A stretch of DNA of 64,000 nt from Sphingobium boeckii (GTDB taxonomy: Bacteria; Pseudomonadota; Alphaproteobacteria; Sphingomonadales; Sphingomonadaceae), in assembly GCF_014199215.1 (NCBI RefSeq), contig NZ_JACIJC010000003.1:372001-436000 (forward strand), read 5' to 3'. The position numbers were made by a program, and so were the translations under genes. The notes under the pieces were generated by a model that did no database searches, was not told the DNA's origin, and saw only the letters and a list, made by a program, of their open reading frames with translations. Each line of letters begins with the position of its first letter. Position 1 is the first letter of the stretch. This document shows positions 6,632-17,644 of this stretch, piece by piece.

Positions 6632-7357
6632 TCACCGGTCCCGGCTGAGTTCTTCCACCTGTTCCATGATCGTATCGAGCGCGGTGCGATTGGGATCAGC
6701 CTCATGCTCGCTGCGCGGGCCGAGCGAATTATCGTTCATGATCTGCTCCAGCGCGACGCGCCCGCGCGCCACGCGGCTCTTGATCGTGCCCACCGCGACA
6801 CCACAGATATCGGCGGCTTCCTCATAAGCGAAGCCACCGGCGCCCACGAGGATCAGAGCCTCGCGTTGCGGCTGGGGCAGCATCAGCAACGCGCGCTGCA
6901 TATCGGCAAGTTCGACATGCCGATCCTGGCTGGCCGGGGCCGCAAGAATCTTGTCTGCAGTCAGATCGTCCCACTCGCCCTTGAACCGCGCGCGCCGCAT
7001 CTGGGAGAGATAGAGATTGCGCAAAATGATGAAGGTCCAGGCGCGCATGTTGGTGCCCGCCTGAAAGCGCAGGCGCGCCGCCCAGGCCTTCATCAGCGTT
7101 TCCTGCACCAGATCATCCGCGAGATCGGCATTGCCCGAGAGCGATCGCCCGAAAGCGCGCAAATGCGGGATCACCGCGCCAAGCTCTTTCTTGAACTCGT
7201 CGTCACTCAGCGAGACATGTTCGACGACTTCCTGGATTTCATCCTCGTCGTCGTCAAAATCGTCCGGTCTCGGCGTATCGGAAGAAATCTGTGTCATCAT
7301 TACCCCAACCCGCGGGACGAACAAAACCGGCGAAGGCGCTGATTGTGAAACTAGCAC
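6632..7357 (-). CDS. ecfG: General stress response ECF sigma factor EcfG
   Basis: An RNA polymerase sigma factor of the ECF15/EcfG group that directs the alphaproteobacterial general stress regulon. Sigma region 2 is visible (DLADDLVQETLMKAW, then NMRAWTFIILRNLY) and so is region 4 (LPQPQREALILVGAGGFAYEEAADICGVAVGTIKSRVARGR, split here only for description). The acidic N-terminus (DDFDDDEDEIQEV) is common in this group. A GTG at 7357 has a perfect AAGGAGG at 7363-7369 with 5-base spacing, so I use it; ATGs at 7300 or 7297 are alternatives that would drop about 20 residues. A 43-aa membrane peptide gene lies just upstream and shares an EcfG-type promoter, which suggests autoregulation. NepR would hold this protein inactive. 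Confidence 0.93.
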   Translation of the reverse strand: MLVSQSAPSPVLFVPRVGVMMTQISSDTPRPDDFDDDEDEIQEVVEHVSLSDDEFKKELGAVIPHLRAFGRSLSGNADLADDLVQETLMKAWAARLRFQAGTNMRAWTFIILRNLYLSQMRRARFKGEWDDLTADKILAAPASQDRHVELADMQRALLMLPQPQREALILVGAGGFAYEEAADICGVAVGTIKSRVARGRVALEQIMNDNSLGPRSEHEADPNRTALDTIMEQVEELSRDR

Positions 7358-7402: not shown

Positions 7403-7534
7403 CTACCAGGCCAGAATGATCGCGAAGATCACGATCACGGCCACCAGGGACACGCCCAGGATATAACGCGTCATGTGCGGGGTCGCCCCTGCACGCGCAT
7501 CCTCTGTCGAGATGTGGATTTCCTCGTCGCTCAT
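7403..7534 (-). CDS. 43-aa single-pass membrane peptide upstream of ecfG
   Basis: A short gene coding for MSDEEIHIS followed by a polar segment and one C-terminal hydrophobic helix (YILGVSLVAVIVIFAIILAW). It looks like a tail-anchored inner-membrane peptide with its N-terminus in the cytoplasm. I start at the internal ATG (7534) because the longer frame overlaps promoter elements at 7577-7602. It sits 45 bases upstream of ecfG on the same strand and directly downstream of the EcfG-type promoter, so it should be co-transcribed with ecfG and stress-induced. The function is unknown. Confidence 0.65.
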   Translation of the reverse strand: MSDEEIHISTEDARAGATPHMTRYILGVSLVAVIVIFAIILAW

Positions 7535-7576
7535 GATCTGCGGTCCCGCTTGTTGTTTATACGCATCGGATGGGGA

Positions 7577-7602
7577 AACGCCCCGCCGCGCCAACAAGTT
7601 CC
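7577..7602 (-). promoter_or_regulatory. EcfG-type promoter of the membrane peptide-ecfG operon
   Basis: Read on the minus strand, GGAAC (7602-7598) is followed after 17 bases by CGTT (7580-7577). This matches the EcfG consensus GGAAC-N16/17-cGTT exactly. It lies 43 bases upstream of the 43-aa peptide start and points toward ecfG, as expected for an autoregulated sigma operon. Confidence 0.75.
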
Positions 7603-7637: not shown

Positions 7638-8432
7638 TCAGGCCGGCACCGTAGCCGAATCGAAGAACAGGGCCTGAGCGATGGCGGCTTTCACCGTCGA
7701 GCGCTGAAAAGGCTTGGTGATCAGGAAGGTCGGCTCCGGACGTTCGCCGGTCAGCAGACGCTCTGGAAACGCCGTGATGAAGATCACGGGCACGCTGAAT
7801 TCGGCCAGGATATCCTTCACCGCGTCGATTCCGCTGCTATCGTCGGCAAGCTGGATATCGGCCAGCACCAGGCCCGGTCGCTTCGCCCGCGCCAACGCCA
7901 CGGCCTCATCACGCGTCACGGCGACGCCGGTCACTTCATGACCCAGATCGCGCACGATCGTTTCGATATCCATCGCAATGATCGGCTCATCCTCGATGAT
8001 CAGCACGTCCGCGCGGGTCTGGCGCTCGATCTCGACCAGCGCTTCATTCACCAGCGCTTCGACCTCAGCGGTCTCGGCTTCGATCAGATAGGCCGTGTCT
8101 TCGGGCGTGAAGCCTTCCATCGCCGTCAGCAGCAGCGCCTGACGGGACAGCGGCGTGATCCGCGAGAGACGCGCCTGGGCGATCGCTTCGGGCTGATGAA
8201 CGCCCTCGTCGATCAGATCGGGCTCCATATTGGCCGGCGACCAGATCGCGTGAAAGGTGCGGTAGAGACCAAGCCGCGGATCGACATCGCGCGGAAACTG
8301 ATCCGGCGCATCAACAATCGCTTCCAGCGTGGCGCGGACATAGGCATCGCCGTGGCCCTGGCTGCCGGTGAGCGCGCGGGCATAGCGGCGCAAGAAGGGA
8401 AGATGCGGTGCCAGTTGTTGACCAAGCGACAT
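7638..8432 (-). CDS. phyR: PhyR response regulator (sigma-mimic anti-anti-sigma factor)
   Basis: A 264-residue regulator with an N-terminal sigma-like domain (about 1-130; FLRRYARALTGSQGHGDAYV, then ITPLSRQALLLTAMEGF) that imitates EcfG, and a C-terminal receiver domain (about 140-260). Receiver hallmarks are LIIEDEPIIAMD, the phospho-acceptor aspartate in LVLADIQL, FITAFPERL and the lysine in LITKPF. When phosphorylated it should bind NepR and release EcfG. It is transcribed away from nepR; the roughly 255-base gap between them holds the nepR promoter. An AGGAG lies about 10 bases before the ATG. No EcfG box was found facing phyR. Confidence 0.95.
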   Translation of the reverse strand: MSLGQQLAPHLPFLRRYARALTGSQGHGDAYVRATLEAIVDAPDQFPRDVDPRLGLYRTFHAIWSPANMEPDLIDEGVHQPEAIAQARLSRITPLSRQALLLTAMEGFTPEDTAYLIEAETAEVEALVNEALVEIERQTRADVLIIEDEPIIAMDIETIVRDLGHEVTGVAVTRDEAVALARAKRPGLVLADIQLADDSSGIDAVKDILAEFSVPVIFITAFPERLLTGERPEPTFLITKPFQRSTVKAAIAQALFFDSATVPA

Positions 8433-8539: not shown

Positions 8540-8564
8540 GGAACAAACGAGTGAGTTTTTTGTT
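8540..8564 (+). promoter_or_regulatory. EcfG-type promoter of nepR
   Basis: GGAAC at 8540-8544, a 16-base spacer and TGTT at 8561-8564 match the EcfG consensus with one change in the -10 (T for C). It lies about 125 bases upstream of the GTG chosen for nepR. The divergent phyR gene starts at 8432, so the intergenic region should serve both directions, although only this orientation shows a clear box. Confidence 0.7.
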
Positions 8565-8687: not shown

Positions 8688-8870
8688 GTGTCTAACGGTA
8701 AGACCAATAAGAGCGCCGCACATTCGACGCGCCCCTCTGCCAAAAAGCCCTCGTCTCGCCCGTCGGAAAAAGACAGCGATGTCGGCACGGCGCTGCGTAA
8801 CATTTATCAAAGGACCATCGACGAGACAGTGCCTCAGGAAATGCTCGATCTGCTCGGCAAGCTCGGCTGA
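8688..8870 (+). CDS. nepR: Anti-sigma factor NepR
   Basis: A 60-residue anti-sigma factor that binds EcfG in unstressed cells. The C-terminal half carries the NepR core (DVGTALRNIYQRTIDETVP, then LDLLGKLG); the N-terminal half is a basic, serine-rich disordered tail. I chose the GTG at 8688 because a strong AGGGGGAAG lies at 8671-8679, 8 bases upstream, and because the longer frame from 8592 would add an atypical cysteine-containing segment. The gene is followed after 5 bases by the PhyP-like kinase gene. An EcfG promoter upstream makes a negative feedback loop. Confidence 0.92.
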   Translation: MSNGKTNKSAAHSTRPSAKKPSSRPSEKDSDVGTALRNIYQRTIDETVPQEMLDLLGKLG

Positions 8871-8875
8871 GATCA

Positions 8876-10489
8876 GTGACAATCGACGCCAAGCAGGCCG
8901 CCACGGATGATCCGCTGGCGCGCGAAGGGCGTTTCGCCCGGTTTTCGACCGGGTTCAAGCTGTTCCTGATCCTCAGCCTGGCGCTGCTGCCGCTGGGTCT
9001 GATCGCTTTTTTCGCCACGCTCCAATCCAGCCGCACGGCGGATTTGGAACGCCGCGCGCAGGTTCGTATCGCGCTGACGGAAAGCACTCGCAAGATCGCC
9101 ACCACCATTGCCGGAGACATGGCGACGCTGAGCGTGGCCATGAAATCAGTGATCGACCGGCCCGACGATCCTACGATCTGTCCGCGCATCACTGAAATCA
9201 TCGCGGCACAAGGCGGAGAAGCAACTCCCTTTGCCATCTTCGGCCCGGCTTCGGAACCCGTCTGCCGCGCGGGTGCCATCGCCGTATTGCGCCCCAGCAC
9301 TTTGCCGCTCGATCCCAATACCCCCGATGATCTCGAGATCGATGAAGAGGGGCTGACGATCACGGTGCGCAGCGCCAGTGCGTCCGTCGTAAGCGTGCTG
9401 CATTATCCGCGCGCGCTGCTCACCAAATTGGCCACGCCGGGCGGTTTCGATATCGATCACAGTTTCGTCCTGCTGGATCAGGACGAACGCACTGCGTTGA
9501 CCGAGCGCAGCATCGGCGGCGGCATGGCGGGATCGGATACATTGTCCGCACCCATCGGCACCACGGGGATGACGGCCGAAATCAACGTGGCGCGGCAGGA
9601 TTTCAGCGCGGCGGAAATTCTCGCCATCCTGCTGCCCTTGATCATGTGGGCGTCGGCCGCCGCCATCGGCTGGGCGGTGGTGGACCGGCTGCTGATCAGG
9701 CCGCTCAAGCTGCTCGAACGCGATGTATCGGCCTATCGACCCGGTGAAATCGTCGATTCGCTGGCGGGCATGACGACCCCCGCCTTCGAACTGCGCCAAC
9801 TTGCGAACACTTTTCACACGATCACCGAGCGGATCTCGCTGCATGAAGGCGAGCTTGCCGAAGGGCTGGCGCGGCAGACCCGGCTGACGCGCGAGGTCCA
9901 TCACCGCGTGAAAAACAATCTCCAGGTGGTGGCCAGCCTGATCAATCTGCACGCGCGCGGCGTGGACAATCCCGAGGTGGCGCGCGCCTATGGCTCGATC
10001 CAGCGCCGCGTCGATGCGCTCGCTGTGGTGCACCGCAATCATTTCGCCGAACTTGAGGACAATCGCGGCGTCGGCTTGCGCCCGCTGATCGGCGAACTGG
10101 CACAGGGGCTGCGCGCTTCGGTGTCGGAAGGGATGACGGGGCCGACGATGGCGCTCGATATCCAGCCCGTTTATGTGAGTCAGGATGTCGCCGTGCCGGT
10201 GTCGTTCCTGCTCACCGAACTGTTCGAGCTGGCGATGACGGCATTGCCCGATGCGCGCGTGGCGATCAGTCTCGCCGCCTCCGTGCCGGGCAAGGCGCGG
10301 CTCGAAGTGCGGTCTGACGCCCTGATCGGATCCCCGGCGCTGATGGCGGGCCTTGAAGGCCGCTATGGCCGCGTGCTCGAAGGCTTGTCCCGCCAGCTCC
10401 GTTCCCCCTTCGACCGCGATCTCGAAAACGGCGTGTTTGCGCTGGAAATCCCGATCGTCGCACAGGATGATGTAGGGTCAGGCGACTGA
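8876..10489 (+). CDS. phyP: PhyP-like HisKA_2 sensor kinase with degenerate ATPase domain
   Basis: A 537-residue membrane sensor. The first helix is at about 27-48, then a periplasmic sensor domain of about 195 residues, a second helix near 247-269, a HAMP-like linker, and a HisKA_2 dimerisation domain with the phospho-acceptor in HHRVKNNLQVVASL (His343). The C-terminal ATPase region lacks the usual N box asparagine (ELFELAMTAL replaces an ELxxNA pattern) and no DxGxG-type G1 box is visible. In Sphingomonas sp. Fr1 the homologous protein PhyP beside nepR acts as a negative regulator of PhyR; the missing ATP-binding residues fit a phosphatase here. GTG start 5 bases after nepR, so the pair is probably co-transcribed. 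Confidence 0.85.
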   Translation: MTIDAKQAATDDPLAREGRFARFSTGFKLFLILSLALLPLGLIAFFATLQSSRTADLERRAQVRIALTESTRKIATTIAGDMATLSVAMKSVIDRPDDPTICPRITEIIAAQGGEATPFAIFGPASEPVCRAGAIAVLRPSTLPLDPNTPDDLEIDEEGLTITVRSASASVVSVLHYPRALLTKLATPGGFDIDHSFVLLDQDERTALTERSIGGGMAGSDTLSAPIGTTGMTAEINVARQDFSAAEILAILLPLIMWASAAAIGWAVVDRLLIRPLKLLERDVSAYRPGEIVDSLAGMTTPAFELRQLANTFHTITERISLHEGELAEGLARQTRLTREVHHRVKNNLQVVASLINLHARGVDNPEVARAYGSIQRRVDALAVVHRNHFAELEDNRGVGLRPLIGELAQGLRASVSEGMTGPTMALDIQPVYVSQDVAVPVSFLLTELFELAMTALPDARVAISLAASVPGKARLEVRSDALIGSPALMAGLEGRYGRVLEGLSRQLRSPFDRDLENGVFALEIPIVAQDDVGSGD

Positions 10490-10543: not shown

Positions 10544-10568
10544 GGAACCTTCAGAACCCTTGCTTGTT
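10544..10568 (+). promoter_or_regulatory. EcfG-type promoter of a putative small RNA
   Basis: GGAAC at 10544-10548, exactly 16 bases, then TGTT at 10565-10568. This is the same -35, spacer length and -10 as the nepR promoter in this locus. The predicted start lies near 10574-10578, right at the base of the first hairpin of the RNA below, and no open frame starts within the next 190 bases. Confidence 0.65.
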
Positions 10569-10574
10569 TTATAC

Positions 10575-10678
10575 TTCGGATAGCGACCTTTTGCCCCCCC
10601 GCTCTCGCTATCCAAGACACGGGCTCGGACTTGCTAACCCCCTCCCCCCCGGTGGCAAGTCCGAGCCCATTTTCTTTT
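10575..10678 (+). ncRNA. Putative general-stress small RNA with two C-loop hairpins
   Basis: The segment after the EcfG-type promoter folds into two perfect hairpins. The first has 9-bp arms at 10578-10586 and 10605-10613, with seven C in the loop (10594-10600). The second has 14-bp arms at 10621-10634 and 10655-10668 with a loop of nearly all C (10638-10650), followed by a T-rich tract 10670-10678, which fits an intrinsic terminator. There is no plausible reading frame. C-rich loops able to pair with Shine-Dalgarno sequences are known in stress small RNAs such as Caulobacter GsrN, which is also EcfG-controlled; homology to GsrN is not claimed. Alternatively the second hairpin could be just the terminator of nepR-phyP. 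Confidence 0.6.
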
Positions 10679-10698
10679 ATTTCCAGATATTTCGTTGC

Positions 10699-10723
10699 GG
10701 AACCGATTCGCTTTTCAAACATT
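10699..10723 (+). promoter_or_regulatory. Weak candidate EcfG-type promoter of the entericidin-like gene
   Basis: GGAAC at 10699-10703, 16 bases, then CATT at 10720-10723. The -35 and spacer are right, but the -10 has A where G is strongly conserved. It lies 50 bases upstream of the lipopeptide gene. The locus makes it plausible; the sequence alone does not prove it. Confidence 0.3.
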
Positions 10724-10773
10724 TGGAAAGGGGTGGCATCGCTTTGGTGCGCCGCTGATTTCGGAGATATCCT

Positions 10774-10902
10774 ATGGTTCGCAAATATCTGGCCCTGGCC
10801 CTTGTCGCCAGCTCGCTCCTCGTCACCGCTTGCAACACCGTCAAGGGTGCTGGTCGCGACGTTGAATCCGTCGGCCAGGCTGGTTCGGAAGTGATCAACT
10901 AA
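10774..10902 (+). CDS. Entericidin-like small lipoprotein
   Basis: A 42-residue peptide with a positively charged start (MVRKYLA), a hydrophobic stretch and the lipobox LVTAC with lipidated Cys20, then a short glycine-rich tail (NTVKGAGRDVESVGQAGSEV). This is the pattern of the entericidin A/B family: tiny stress-linked lipoproteins of the cell envelope. An SD-like GGAG lies 8 bases before the ATG. It is followed by a strong intrinsic terminator. Its position next to the stress sigma locus suggests stress regulation. Too short for sequence-scale certainty, but the lipobox and tail are characteristic. Confidence 0.8.
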   Translation: MVRKYLALALVASSLLVTACNTVKGAGRDVESVGQAGSEVIN

Positions 10903-15179: not shown

Positions 15180-15917
15180 TTATTGGACGAGACAGGTTTC
15201 GCCCGCCGCCTTCAGCTTGCCGCAAAGCGCCGAAGCCGCCGCGCCTGATCCGGCATCGGTGCGCAAGCGATAGACGGTGCCGCTTGCGCCGGGAACGGGA
15301 ACAACAATCTTGGAAAAAGGCGCAAGATAGTTGAAGCGCTTGGTGAGATTGGCCCAGACCTGATTGGCCTTGGCCTCCGTCCCAAAGGCACCAAACTGCA
15401 CCTGACTGCCGCGCGCGCCGGACGCCACGGGCGCGGCAACGGGCCGGGTTGCGACGGGCGCAGCCAGCTTGCCAGCATCGGCCACCTTGGTGCTGACGGC
15501 TGCCGCGGGCGGCGTCACCGGCTTGGCGACCACGGGGGCTGGCTTGGTGACGGCCACGGGTGCTTCGGGCAGCGCATTGGTGTCGATCTGCGCGCCGCCT
15601 TCCGCGCCGTCGCTGGTGGCAAAGGCGGCGTCGCCCTGCCCTTCCACCTTCATGCCGCCGGCATCGTCGGGCTTCACCTTATAGTCACCCGCAGGCGCAG
15701 CGATCACGGCGCCATCCCCTTCGGTGCTGCTGCCGCGATTCTTGAGCCAATAAGCCCCGCCGACGACAAGGCCGAGCAGGATCAGGGCGATGATCAGCCC
15801 GCCGATGAGCTTACCCGAATTGATGCCGCTTTCGGGATCTTCATCCTCCACGGCCTCCAGCCAGGGCAGGCGATCCTCATCACGCAAATTCAGTCCGTCG
15901 CGATCCACATCCGTCAT
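15180..15917 (-). CDS. SPOR-domain membrane protein
   Basis: A bitopic inner-membrane protein: a short acidic cytoplasmic start, one helix (about 41-63, IGGLIIALILLGLVVGGAYW), a long alanine/proline/valine-rich periplasmic linker, and a C-terminal SPOR domain (VQFGAFGTEAKANQVWANL). SPOR domains bind glycan strands lacking stem peptides at division sites. The ATG at 15917 overlaps the argS stop by one base (TGATG); a GTG one codon upstream is an alternative. Position between argS and nagZ is conserved in sphingomonads. Confidence 0.87.
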   Translation of the reverse strand: MTDVDRDGLNLRDEDRLPWLEAVEDEDPESGINSGKLIGGLIIALILLGLVVGGAYWLKNRGSSTEGDGAVIAAPAGDYKVKPDDAGGMKVEGQGDAAFATSDGAEGGAQIDTNALPEAPVAVTKPAPVVAKPVTPPAAAVSTKVADAGKLAAPVATRPVAAPVASGARGSQVQFGAFGTEAKANQVWANLTKRFNYLAPFSKIVVPVPGASGTVYRLRTDAGSGAAASALCGKLKAAGETCLVQ

Positions 15918-17644
15918 CACTGCATCTCCTCGACGGCGGCCACCCCCATAATGGCCAATCCGTTAACGATAATCTGCCCGATCGCATTGGCAAGAAAAAG
16001 CCGTGCGCAGGTTGTCGGGGCGTCGTTTGCCAGCAGGAAACGCCGTTCGGGCCTATCATTGCCCAAATTCCACAGCGCATGGAAGGCCGCAGCGAGATCA
16101 CCCAGATAAAAGGCCACGCGATGCGGCTCGCGGCTGAGCGCCGCCGCTTCCACGATGCGCGGGAATTGCGCGGCCAGCTTCACCACCGCGAGATCCTCGG
16201 CGTCAAGCAGCGACAGGTCCACCGCACCGCACACGATGCCAGCCTCGGCCGCCTTGCGATTGACCGAACGGATGCGCGCATGGGCATATTGGACGTAGAA
16301 GACCGGATTGTCCTTCGACGCCTCCACCACCTTGGCGAAATCGAAATCCATCTGCGCATCGGCCTTGCGGGTGAGCATGGTGAAGCGCACGACATCCTTG
16401 CCCACTTCCTCCACCACATCGGCCAGCGTGACGAAATTGCCCGACCGCTTGGACATTTTCACGGGCTCGCCATCGCGCAGCAGGCGTACCATCTGCACCA
16501 ATTTCACATCGAAGCGCGTCTTGCCATGGGTCAGCGCGGCCACAGCCGCCTGGATGCGCTTCACCGTGCCGGCATGATCCGCACCCCAGATGTCGATCAA
16601 TTCGTCGGCGTTCTGGGCTTTCTGATAATGATAGGCCAAATCCGCGCCGAAATAAGTCCAATGGCCATCGGACTTTCTGATCGGACGATCCTGATCGTCG
16701 CCAAATTGAGTCGAGCGGAACAGCGGGAGTTCCACCGGCTCCCAATCTTCCACAGTCTGGCCCTTGGGCCGCTCAAGCACGCCATCATAGACCAGATCGC
16801 GCGACCGCAATTCGGCCTCCGCCGCCTCGGGCTTTCCCGCCGCCTGCAATTCGGCTTCCGACGAAAACAGATCATGATGGATGCCCAGCAGCGCCAGATC
16901 GTCCTTGATCATCACGATCATCGCCGCAACCGCACGGGTGCGGAACAGCGCCAGCCATTCGCCTTCAGGCGCGGCAACGTAGGTGTCGCCAAACTCCTGA
17001 GCCAGCGCCTGGCCAACCGGCACCAGATAATCGCCCGGATACAGACCCTCGGGGATCTCGCCCACCGCTTCGCCCAGCGCTTCGCGATACCGCACATGCG
17101 CCGAACGCCCGAGCACATCGACCTGCCCGCCCGCATCATTCACATAATATTCGCGGATCACCGTATTGCCCGCATATTCGAGCAGGCTCGCCAGCGCATC
17201 GCCCACCACCGCACCACGGCAATGGCCCATGTGCATCGGCCCCGTGGGATTGGCGGAGACATATTCGATATTGACGGTGATGCCCCGGCCCTGATCCGAA
17301 CGGCCATAATCGCCCGCTGCATCGGCAATGGCCTGAAGCTCGCCGCGCCATGCGCTCTCGGCCAGCCGCAGATTGATGAAGCCCGGTCCCGCAATCTCTG
17401 CGGATACCACCTCGTCGATCGCGCCCAGCCCGGCGGCGATCTTTTCGGCCAGCGCGCGCGGGTTGGTACCCGCGGGCTTGGCGAGCACCATGGCCGCATT
17501 GGTCGAGAGATCGCCATGGGATGGATCCCGCGGCGGCTCCACGGTCACATTGCGGCGCTCCAGCCCCTCGGGCAAGTCTCCGGCGGCAACAAGGCTATCG
17601 AGCACGGCATCGATATGCGCGGCAAAACGGGCGTAAAGGGTCAC
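15917..17644 (-). CDS. argS: Arginine-tRNA ligase
   Basis: Class I aminoacyl-tRNA synthetase that charges tRNA-Arg. The HIGH signature is HMGHCRGA (inside [13 protein letters not shown]) and the KMSKS-like signature is VKMSKRSGN; the N-terminal tRNA-binding domain and C-terminal anticodon domain (DALRVAF-like [16 protein letters not shown]) are present. I start at the GTG at 17644 (CVTLYARF in the longer frame becomes MTLYARF); a TTG at 17677 lacks a ribosome binding site. The stop overlaps the SPOR gene. Confidence 0.94.

Follow-up and report, generated by a model that had tools for sequence, protein, structure and literature searches.

A conserved predicted small RNA with an EcfG-type promoter and C-rich hairpin loops beside the general stress genes of sphingomonads

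The general stress pathway of sphingomonads has been studied in Sphingomonas melonis. The window analyzed here, a stretch of 64,000 nucleotides from the genome of Sphingobium boeckii, carries genes of this pathway next to a predicted small RNA and comprises the following features:

6632..7357, minus strand: ecfG (Pfam Sigma70_r2 and Sigma70_r4_2), with a GTG start at 7357 or an ATG start at 7300
7638..8432, minus strand: phyR (Pfam PhyR_sigma2, PhyR_sigma-like and Response_reg)
8688..8870, plus strand: nepR, anti-sigma factor (Pfam NepR with 23.2 bits, below the cut-off of 25.7)
8876..10489, plus strand: histidine kinase-type gene, presumably phyP (Pfam HisKA_2 and HWE_HK), directly upstream of the RNA
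10544..10548, plus strand: EcfG-type −35 element GGAAC, read directly from the sequence
10565..10568, plus strand: EcfG-type −10 element TGTT, read directly, with GTT at 10566-10568
10575..10682, plus strand: predicted small RNA, its start placed by the promoter spacing and its end by the T-rich tract
10578..10613, plus strand: hairpin 1, a 9-bp stem with an 18-nt loop at the predicted 5′ end
10614..10620, plus strand: A-rich linker AAGACAC, read directly
10621..10668, plus strand: hairpin 2, terminator-like, with the C-rich loop CCCCCTCCCCCCC
10670..10682, plus strand: T-rich tract after hairpin 2, read directly
10774..10902, plus strand: entericidin-like gene of 42 aa (Pfam PF08085 Entericidin with 25.9 bits, cut-off 23.3), a neighbor outside the RNA

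The name phyP was taken over from the initial annotation of this DNA, and the gene at 6632..7357 was assigned to EcfG by its position and by its naming in the same annotation. For nepR, no other NepR match in the genome reached E ≤ 0.001; its GTG start, with AGGGGG immediately 5′ of it, is our choice. Where the initial annotation had seen no gene in the next 190 bases, the 42-codon entericidin-like reading frame in fact begins about 95 nt past position 10678. The stretch GGAACCGATTCGCTTTTCAAACATTTG lies 5′ of this gene at 10699-10727, and a GGAAC box occurs at a similar place in two other loci (L004 and L006); perhaps this box belongs to an EcfG-type promoter of the gene itself, with CATT as −10 element. 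Between ecfG and phyR, a 43-codon open reading frame on the minus strand (7403-7602) is preceded by GGAAC-N18-GTT; a Pfam search with this frame gave no match.

Copies of the RNA were searched for in 249 genomes of the family. With a 141-nt query, blastn gave matches in 71 of these genomes, representing 32 of 96 genera. A covariance model built from the 30 best blastn copies gave matches at E ≤ 0.01 in 99 of the 249 genomes (42 of 96 genera), a count that is somewhat inflated because matches below 40 bits include clear chance ones. Among 54 model matches (the best per source), 11 scored below 40 bits, and just two of these had a promoter (L100 and L127); L106 and L083, with fewer than 40 bits and no promoter, were rejected as chance matches. 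Thirteen further model matches had been excluded before counting; almost without exception, they lay on the other strand of hairpins already matched. The 43 copies scoring at least 40 bits represent one copy per locus fetched, some of them belonging to one and the same genus. Four matches of 24-28 bits (L094, L123, L124 and L088) displayed a structure similar to hairpin 2 with C-rich loops, no EcfG promoter and no clear hairpin 1; perhaps they form another group of C-loop RNAs in Sphingomonadaceae, or they are due to chance. The search for extended complementarity to the loop gave a single place with two mismatches in the S. boeckii genome (contig 9, 5102-5119). Although preceded by an EcfG-like motif, it was rejected as a second copy, since hairpins like those of the RNA are missing and an open frame begins there.

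In named genome contigs, 118 stretches contain an exact match to a 25-mer taken from loop and stem. The 80 stretches listed included Sphingomonas, Sphingosinicella, Allosphingosinicella, Sphingomicrobium, Stakelama, and Parasphingopyxis, as well as metagenome bins labelled Sphingomonadaceae, Sphingomonadales or just Alphaproteobacteria. Model searches beyond the family used stricter filters. An order-wide draw gave matches in 23 of 147 genomes, all of them Sphingomonadaceae; the displayed rows all came from that family and are hence little informative on others. A class-wide draw of 289 genomes gave just two weak matches beyond two family members (E = 0.009 and 0.09) and nothing clear.

PhyR was found in 224 of the 249 family genomes at E ≤ 1e-20. 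In 85 of the 101 listed genomes whose PhyR is at least 64% identical to that of the window, the model had a match at E ≤ 1e-5. Outside this group only three matches reached this level (G017, G022 and G138), the last being a chance match. A search for a promoter plus C run in 11 loci with PhyR identities of 57-61% yielded seven matches in four loci, none of them similar to the sphingomonad RNA by eye. Two genomes of one genus (G029 and G112) have the order phyP-entericidin-tatC without the RNA, which reads as a loss.

The GGAAC-N16-TGTT promoter noticed in the initial annotation (equivalent to GGAAC-N17-GTT) is real, and its form is the same as that of the promoter at 8540-8564 before nepR. The motif alone is not rare in the window (five matches compared with 2.4 ± 1.5 after shuffling, with 8 of 100 shuffles giving as many), so that the weight rests on the conservation of the promoter. 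Using the pattern GGAAC/T-N15..18-GTT, for which the chance level is 0.007 per window tested (0.7% background), we detected an EcfG-type promoter just upstream of 42 of the 43 copies, with a spacing of invariably 17 or 18. The exception, L095, carries a near-consensus GAAACC box instead. The promoter was also found in 75 of 77 full-length copies, the testable part of the 80 named stretches listed. Since copies away from the stress genes (e.g. L080, L126, L125 and L082) retain the promoter, its conservation is no by-product of position; in L080, L126 and L121, which also lie elsewhere, a C7 loop is retained together with the promoter. The RNA is apparently under sigma-factor control, and we infer that it is transcribed by EcfG.

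The two perfect hairpins described initially, one of 9 bp and one of 14 bp, both have C-rich loops and are followed by a T-rich tail; their coordinates and stems were confirmed. In hairpin 1, GGATAGCGA (10578-10586) pairs with TCGCTATCC (10605-10613), and the loop in between (10587-10604) contains seven consecutive C at 10594-10600. Hairpin 2 consists of 14 perfect pairs (10621-10634 with 10655-10668) and a C-rich loop around 10638-10650; a simple terminator scan missed it because the scan takes loops of 3-8 only. By analogy with GsrN of Caulobacter, the linker at 10614..10620 might, speculatively, be a processing or Hfq site. The fold of 10574-10700 has a predicted energy of −49.2 kcal/mol, compared with −27.9 ± 2.9 kcal/mol for 200 shuffled sequences (z = −7.3), none of which was as low.

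Hairpins and loops, whose conservation in relatives the initial annotation had left to be checked, are both conserved, and so is the promoter. In 30 aligned copies, which are the best blastn matches and hence biased towards conserved ones, 98.5% of the stem cells were paired and 15 of the 24 stem pairs displayed two-sided changes. These were distributed over three of nine pairs in hairpin 1, where 100% of the cells were paired, and 12 of 15 pairs in hairpin 2. Cells with two-sided changes numbered 53, compared with 11.5 in shuffled alignments, and all slid versions were far worse. When covariation was compared with 500 shuffles, four of five measures were as high in none (0/500) and the fifth in a single one (1/500).

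Loop 1 (TTTTGCCCCCCCGCTCTCG) was near invariant over its whole 18 nt in the 30 copies. In the wider set of 43 copies (40 bits or more), 37 have GC(6-9)GCT in loop 1; in three distant ones (L080, L126 and L108), the flanks of the loop vary and the C run stays. One locus (L121:8945-9038, genome G225) contains a second RNA in which loop 1 is the same but the stem differs; this RNA has an EcfG promoter of its own. Its neighbors, which we take from their sequences to be dnaE2- and imuB-like, give it an SOS-related look. As loop 1 is near invariant and recurs in L121 on another stem, it is probably the part under selection. What was observed for the RNA, namely its sequence, predicted structure, covariation, promoter conservation, and synteny, leads us to predict with high confidence a strongly conserved sphingomonad small RNA gene with an EcfG promoter. 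At this level, the two-hairpin RNA first proposed for the locus is upheld, its promoter, hairpins, and loops all being conserved.

Known RNA families were compared as well. With Rfam release 15, no match at gathering score was obtained in the window or in the loci of 15 relatives. The Rfam family Scr3202 of Streptomyces (RF02833), which also has two C-loop hairpins, aligns along the whole RNA (10574-10672, plus strand) with 32.4 bits and E = 0.0084; it differs in that the alignment stays below the gathering score of 52 and the host belongs to a distant phylum. This likeness is most likely convergent. The alpha-r14 and cuckoo RNAs likewise possess C-rich anti-Shine-Dalgarno hairpin loops, with variable stems and stable loops (PMC10746234, PMC3927594, PMC10253847). 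In contrast to the sphingomonad RNA, they carry, according to the descriptions in these sources, three or four loops with CCUCCUCCC and other promoters where promoters are named. The hairpin loops of the sphingomonad RNA do not follow the CCUCCUCCC pattern: loop 1 reads GCCCCCCCGCTC, and loop 2 contains CCTCC (CCUCC) in only 19 of the 43 copies. For other Caulobacteraceae and for Rhizobiaceae, RNAs similar to GsrN of Caulobacter have been put forward (PMC5869019, Figure 9 legend), the latter being a different bacterial family from that of the sphingomonad RNA. In search listings of the open literature, we found no report of a small RNA of this type in sphingomonads, for which it thus appears undescribed so far. 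Terms for small RNAs were absent from a stress paper on Sphingomonas melonis and occurred in two reference titles only of one on Sphingopyxis granuli.

In plan, the sphingomonad RNA resembles GsrN, as known from its published description (PMC5869019). According to this source, GsrN is transcribed by sigT/EcfG, has about 100 nt, and carries a 5′ loop with six C, through which it pairs with G-rich sites and activates katG. Processing yields a stable 5′ isoform of 51-54 nt, the full-length RNA is stabilized by Hfq, and the RNAs recovered together with GsrN in Caulobacter include those of nepR and sigT (PMC5869019, Table 1). Its gene is typically located near nepR-phyR-ecfG in Caulobacteraceae, C. 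crescentus itself being excepted. Shared features at the level of sequence are (i) an EcfG/sigT consensus promoter directly upstream, as in the 42 of 43 copies mentioned above; (ii) an exposed C run in the loop of the 5′ hairpin, with seven C here; and (iii) a predicted length of about 100 nt and a place beside nepR-phyR-ecfG, a phyR match being located at most 4.5 kb upstream of 30 of the 43 copies (weak in L110).

The RNA also differs from GsrN as described. The terminator-like hairpin 2 of the sphingomonad RNA also bears a C-rich loop, and katG is not supported as a target in sphingomonads. Among 19 rows of katG leaders, about nine had a convincing KatG start, and of these nine one (L344) has five consecutive G within 110 nt; a katG match was absent from 12 of 30 RNA-bearing genomes. 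With no conserved G-run before katG and the gene often missing, katG was rejected as a target in common with GsrN. Because the demonstrated likeness is one of plan and the katG target is unsupported, the RNA is not classed as GsrN. A 15-mer complementary to the published GsrN target sites was found at one place in 240 genomes of the class, with no EcfG promoter before it. The combination of promoter and GC6 occurred in 51 of 220 genomes of the class, a frequency that to the eye did not exceed that in the control columns, and none of the 29 loci folded out of 30 from this pattern appeared GsrN-like to our eye. In the published account, BLASTn matches of GsrN are confined to Caulobacteraceae, and a gsrN-like gene is not apparent in Erythrobacter litoralis (PMC5869019); the absence of the sphingomonad RNA from the loci with PhyR identities of 57-61% fits the latter report.

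We consider it likely that the RNA is controlled by EcfG and works like GsrN, its C-rich loops seeding on G-rich mRNA as a post-transcriptional arm of the stress response. In such a mechanism, the general stress sigma factor EcfG would transcribe the RNA, and the C7 loop of the 5′ hairpin would seed on G-rich mRNA stretches, many of which probably overlap or adjoin ribosome-binding sites. A second C-rich loop would be supplied by the terminator-like hairpin 2. The general stress response would thereby be extended to the post-transcriptional level. Since G-rich leaders are common in the genome (322 matches of G6-N3..25-ATG, overlapping ones included, versus 42 for the backward pattern), C-rich loops have many possible partners. 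It is likely that they act on G-rich mRNA sites and that the target set is broad, as for GsrN.

The initial annotation had named ecfG and nepR as candidate targets. Four or more consecutive G lie within 30 nt before the nepR start in 20 of 25 loci that carry the RNA, compared with 46 of 355 leaders of twelve other genes pooled from the same loci; the 25 loci are all related, four belonging to the genus of the window, so this comparison is no formal test. Both counts cover only the 43 loci with at least 40 bits; a wider set gave 20 of 25 for nepR and 49 of 380 for the other genes. The start codon of nepR, frequently TTG, is ambiguous, and a fixed rule served to choose a single start for each locus. 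In the five loci that scored low (L098, L102, L109, L114 and L115), a run of 4-6 G lies slightly upstream or downstream, a freedom that was not equally given to the controls. After nepR, the highest numbers of leaders with at least four G were those of a SPOR gene (12 of 26) and ecfG (7 of 25). A run of five or more G precedes the start of the SPOR-domain gene (15180-15920, minus strand) in 11 of 29 loci, and this gene is a possible further target. In loci without the RNA, the nepR G-run was present in 3 of 11; the genus that has apparently lost the RNA accounts for two of the three. A run of five G before nepR is retained in two genomes without the RNA. Given the relatedness of the loci, and because a G-run may function as a ribosome-binding site in its own right, the nepR G-run is only suggestive.

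Single-genome pairing energies picked out neither gene among 56 leaders of the window, which are based on rough gene calls. By duplex energy, nepR ranked 21st with loop 1 and 25th with loop 2; ecfG ranked 37th and 14th with its GTG start, which is preceded by AAGGAGG, and 12th and 7th with its ATG start. As a target, ecfG was thus not borne out, given these unremarkable ranks and the few loci with a leader G-run. The proposed feedback through nepR is supported in part: the G-run in its leader and the co-purification of nepR RNA with GsrN (PMC5869019) point towards it, whereas the energy ranks and the G5 run kept in two genomes without the RNA do not. Possibly, nepR is one target, in which case pairing would reduce the amount of anti-sigma factor and make the response stronger. 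More tentatively, and at present rather doubtful, a positive feedback may exist in which EcfG raises the RNA, the C7 run covers the G-rich start of nepR, and less NepR leaves more EcfG free, providing the sphingomonad stress switch with a post-transcriptional memory; the link to nepR would be old, as the G-run is kept across genera.

Instead of acting as antisense, the C-rich loops could serve to bind a protein or, as a sponge, to sequester an RNA-binding protein. Loop 1 is almost invariant over all of its 18 nt in the 30 copies, beyond the C run alone, which is beyond what seed pairing with variable targets would need, and sites of extended complementarity were not in excess in six genomes, with 25 places besides the RNA itself versus 25 control matches. 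GsrN with its similar loop, however, acts by pairing according to its description (PMC5869019), a G-run is conserved before nepR, and the more distant copies keep the C run with differing loop flanks; we regard protein binding as unlikely.

Downstream of the RNA, an entericidin match was found within 0.7 kb in 34 of the 43 copies; tatC lies downstream in 37. The element might represent a 5′ leader or attenuator of the entericidin gene, with hairpin 2 deciding on read-through from the EcfG promoter. A stress lipoprotein would suit such a promoter, and by a loose rule the T-rich tail is present in 36 of the 43 copies and absent in seven, so that termination may be incomplete in some. This reading is nonetheless very improbable: entericidin is absent there in nine of the 43 copies, among which L080, L126 and L121 keep promoter and loops, and attenuation does not require the near-invariant C7 loop of hairpin 1. 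That hairpin 2 is a mere phyP terminator and hairpin 1 incidental, with no regulatory RNA at all, would suit the 29 of 43 copies with a phyP match directly upstream (weak in L110) but is extremely improbable, as the other 14 copies are not behind phyP, 42 of 43 have the promoter, both stems covary, and loop 1 is near invariant.

For the GsrN-like, EcfG-controlled RNA that we favor, the precedent lies in Caulobacter, where such an RNA is known, with others proposed elsewhere (PMC5869019); for sphingomonads, none was found in the open literature. A loop nearly unchanged over many genera indicates strong selection. The finding bears on whether RNAs of the GsrN type arose once or repeatedly, and the G-run conserved before nepR offers a direct connection, amenable to experiment, by which the sigma factor could act back on its own anti-sigma factor.
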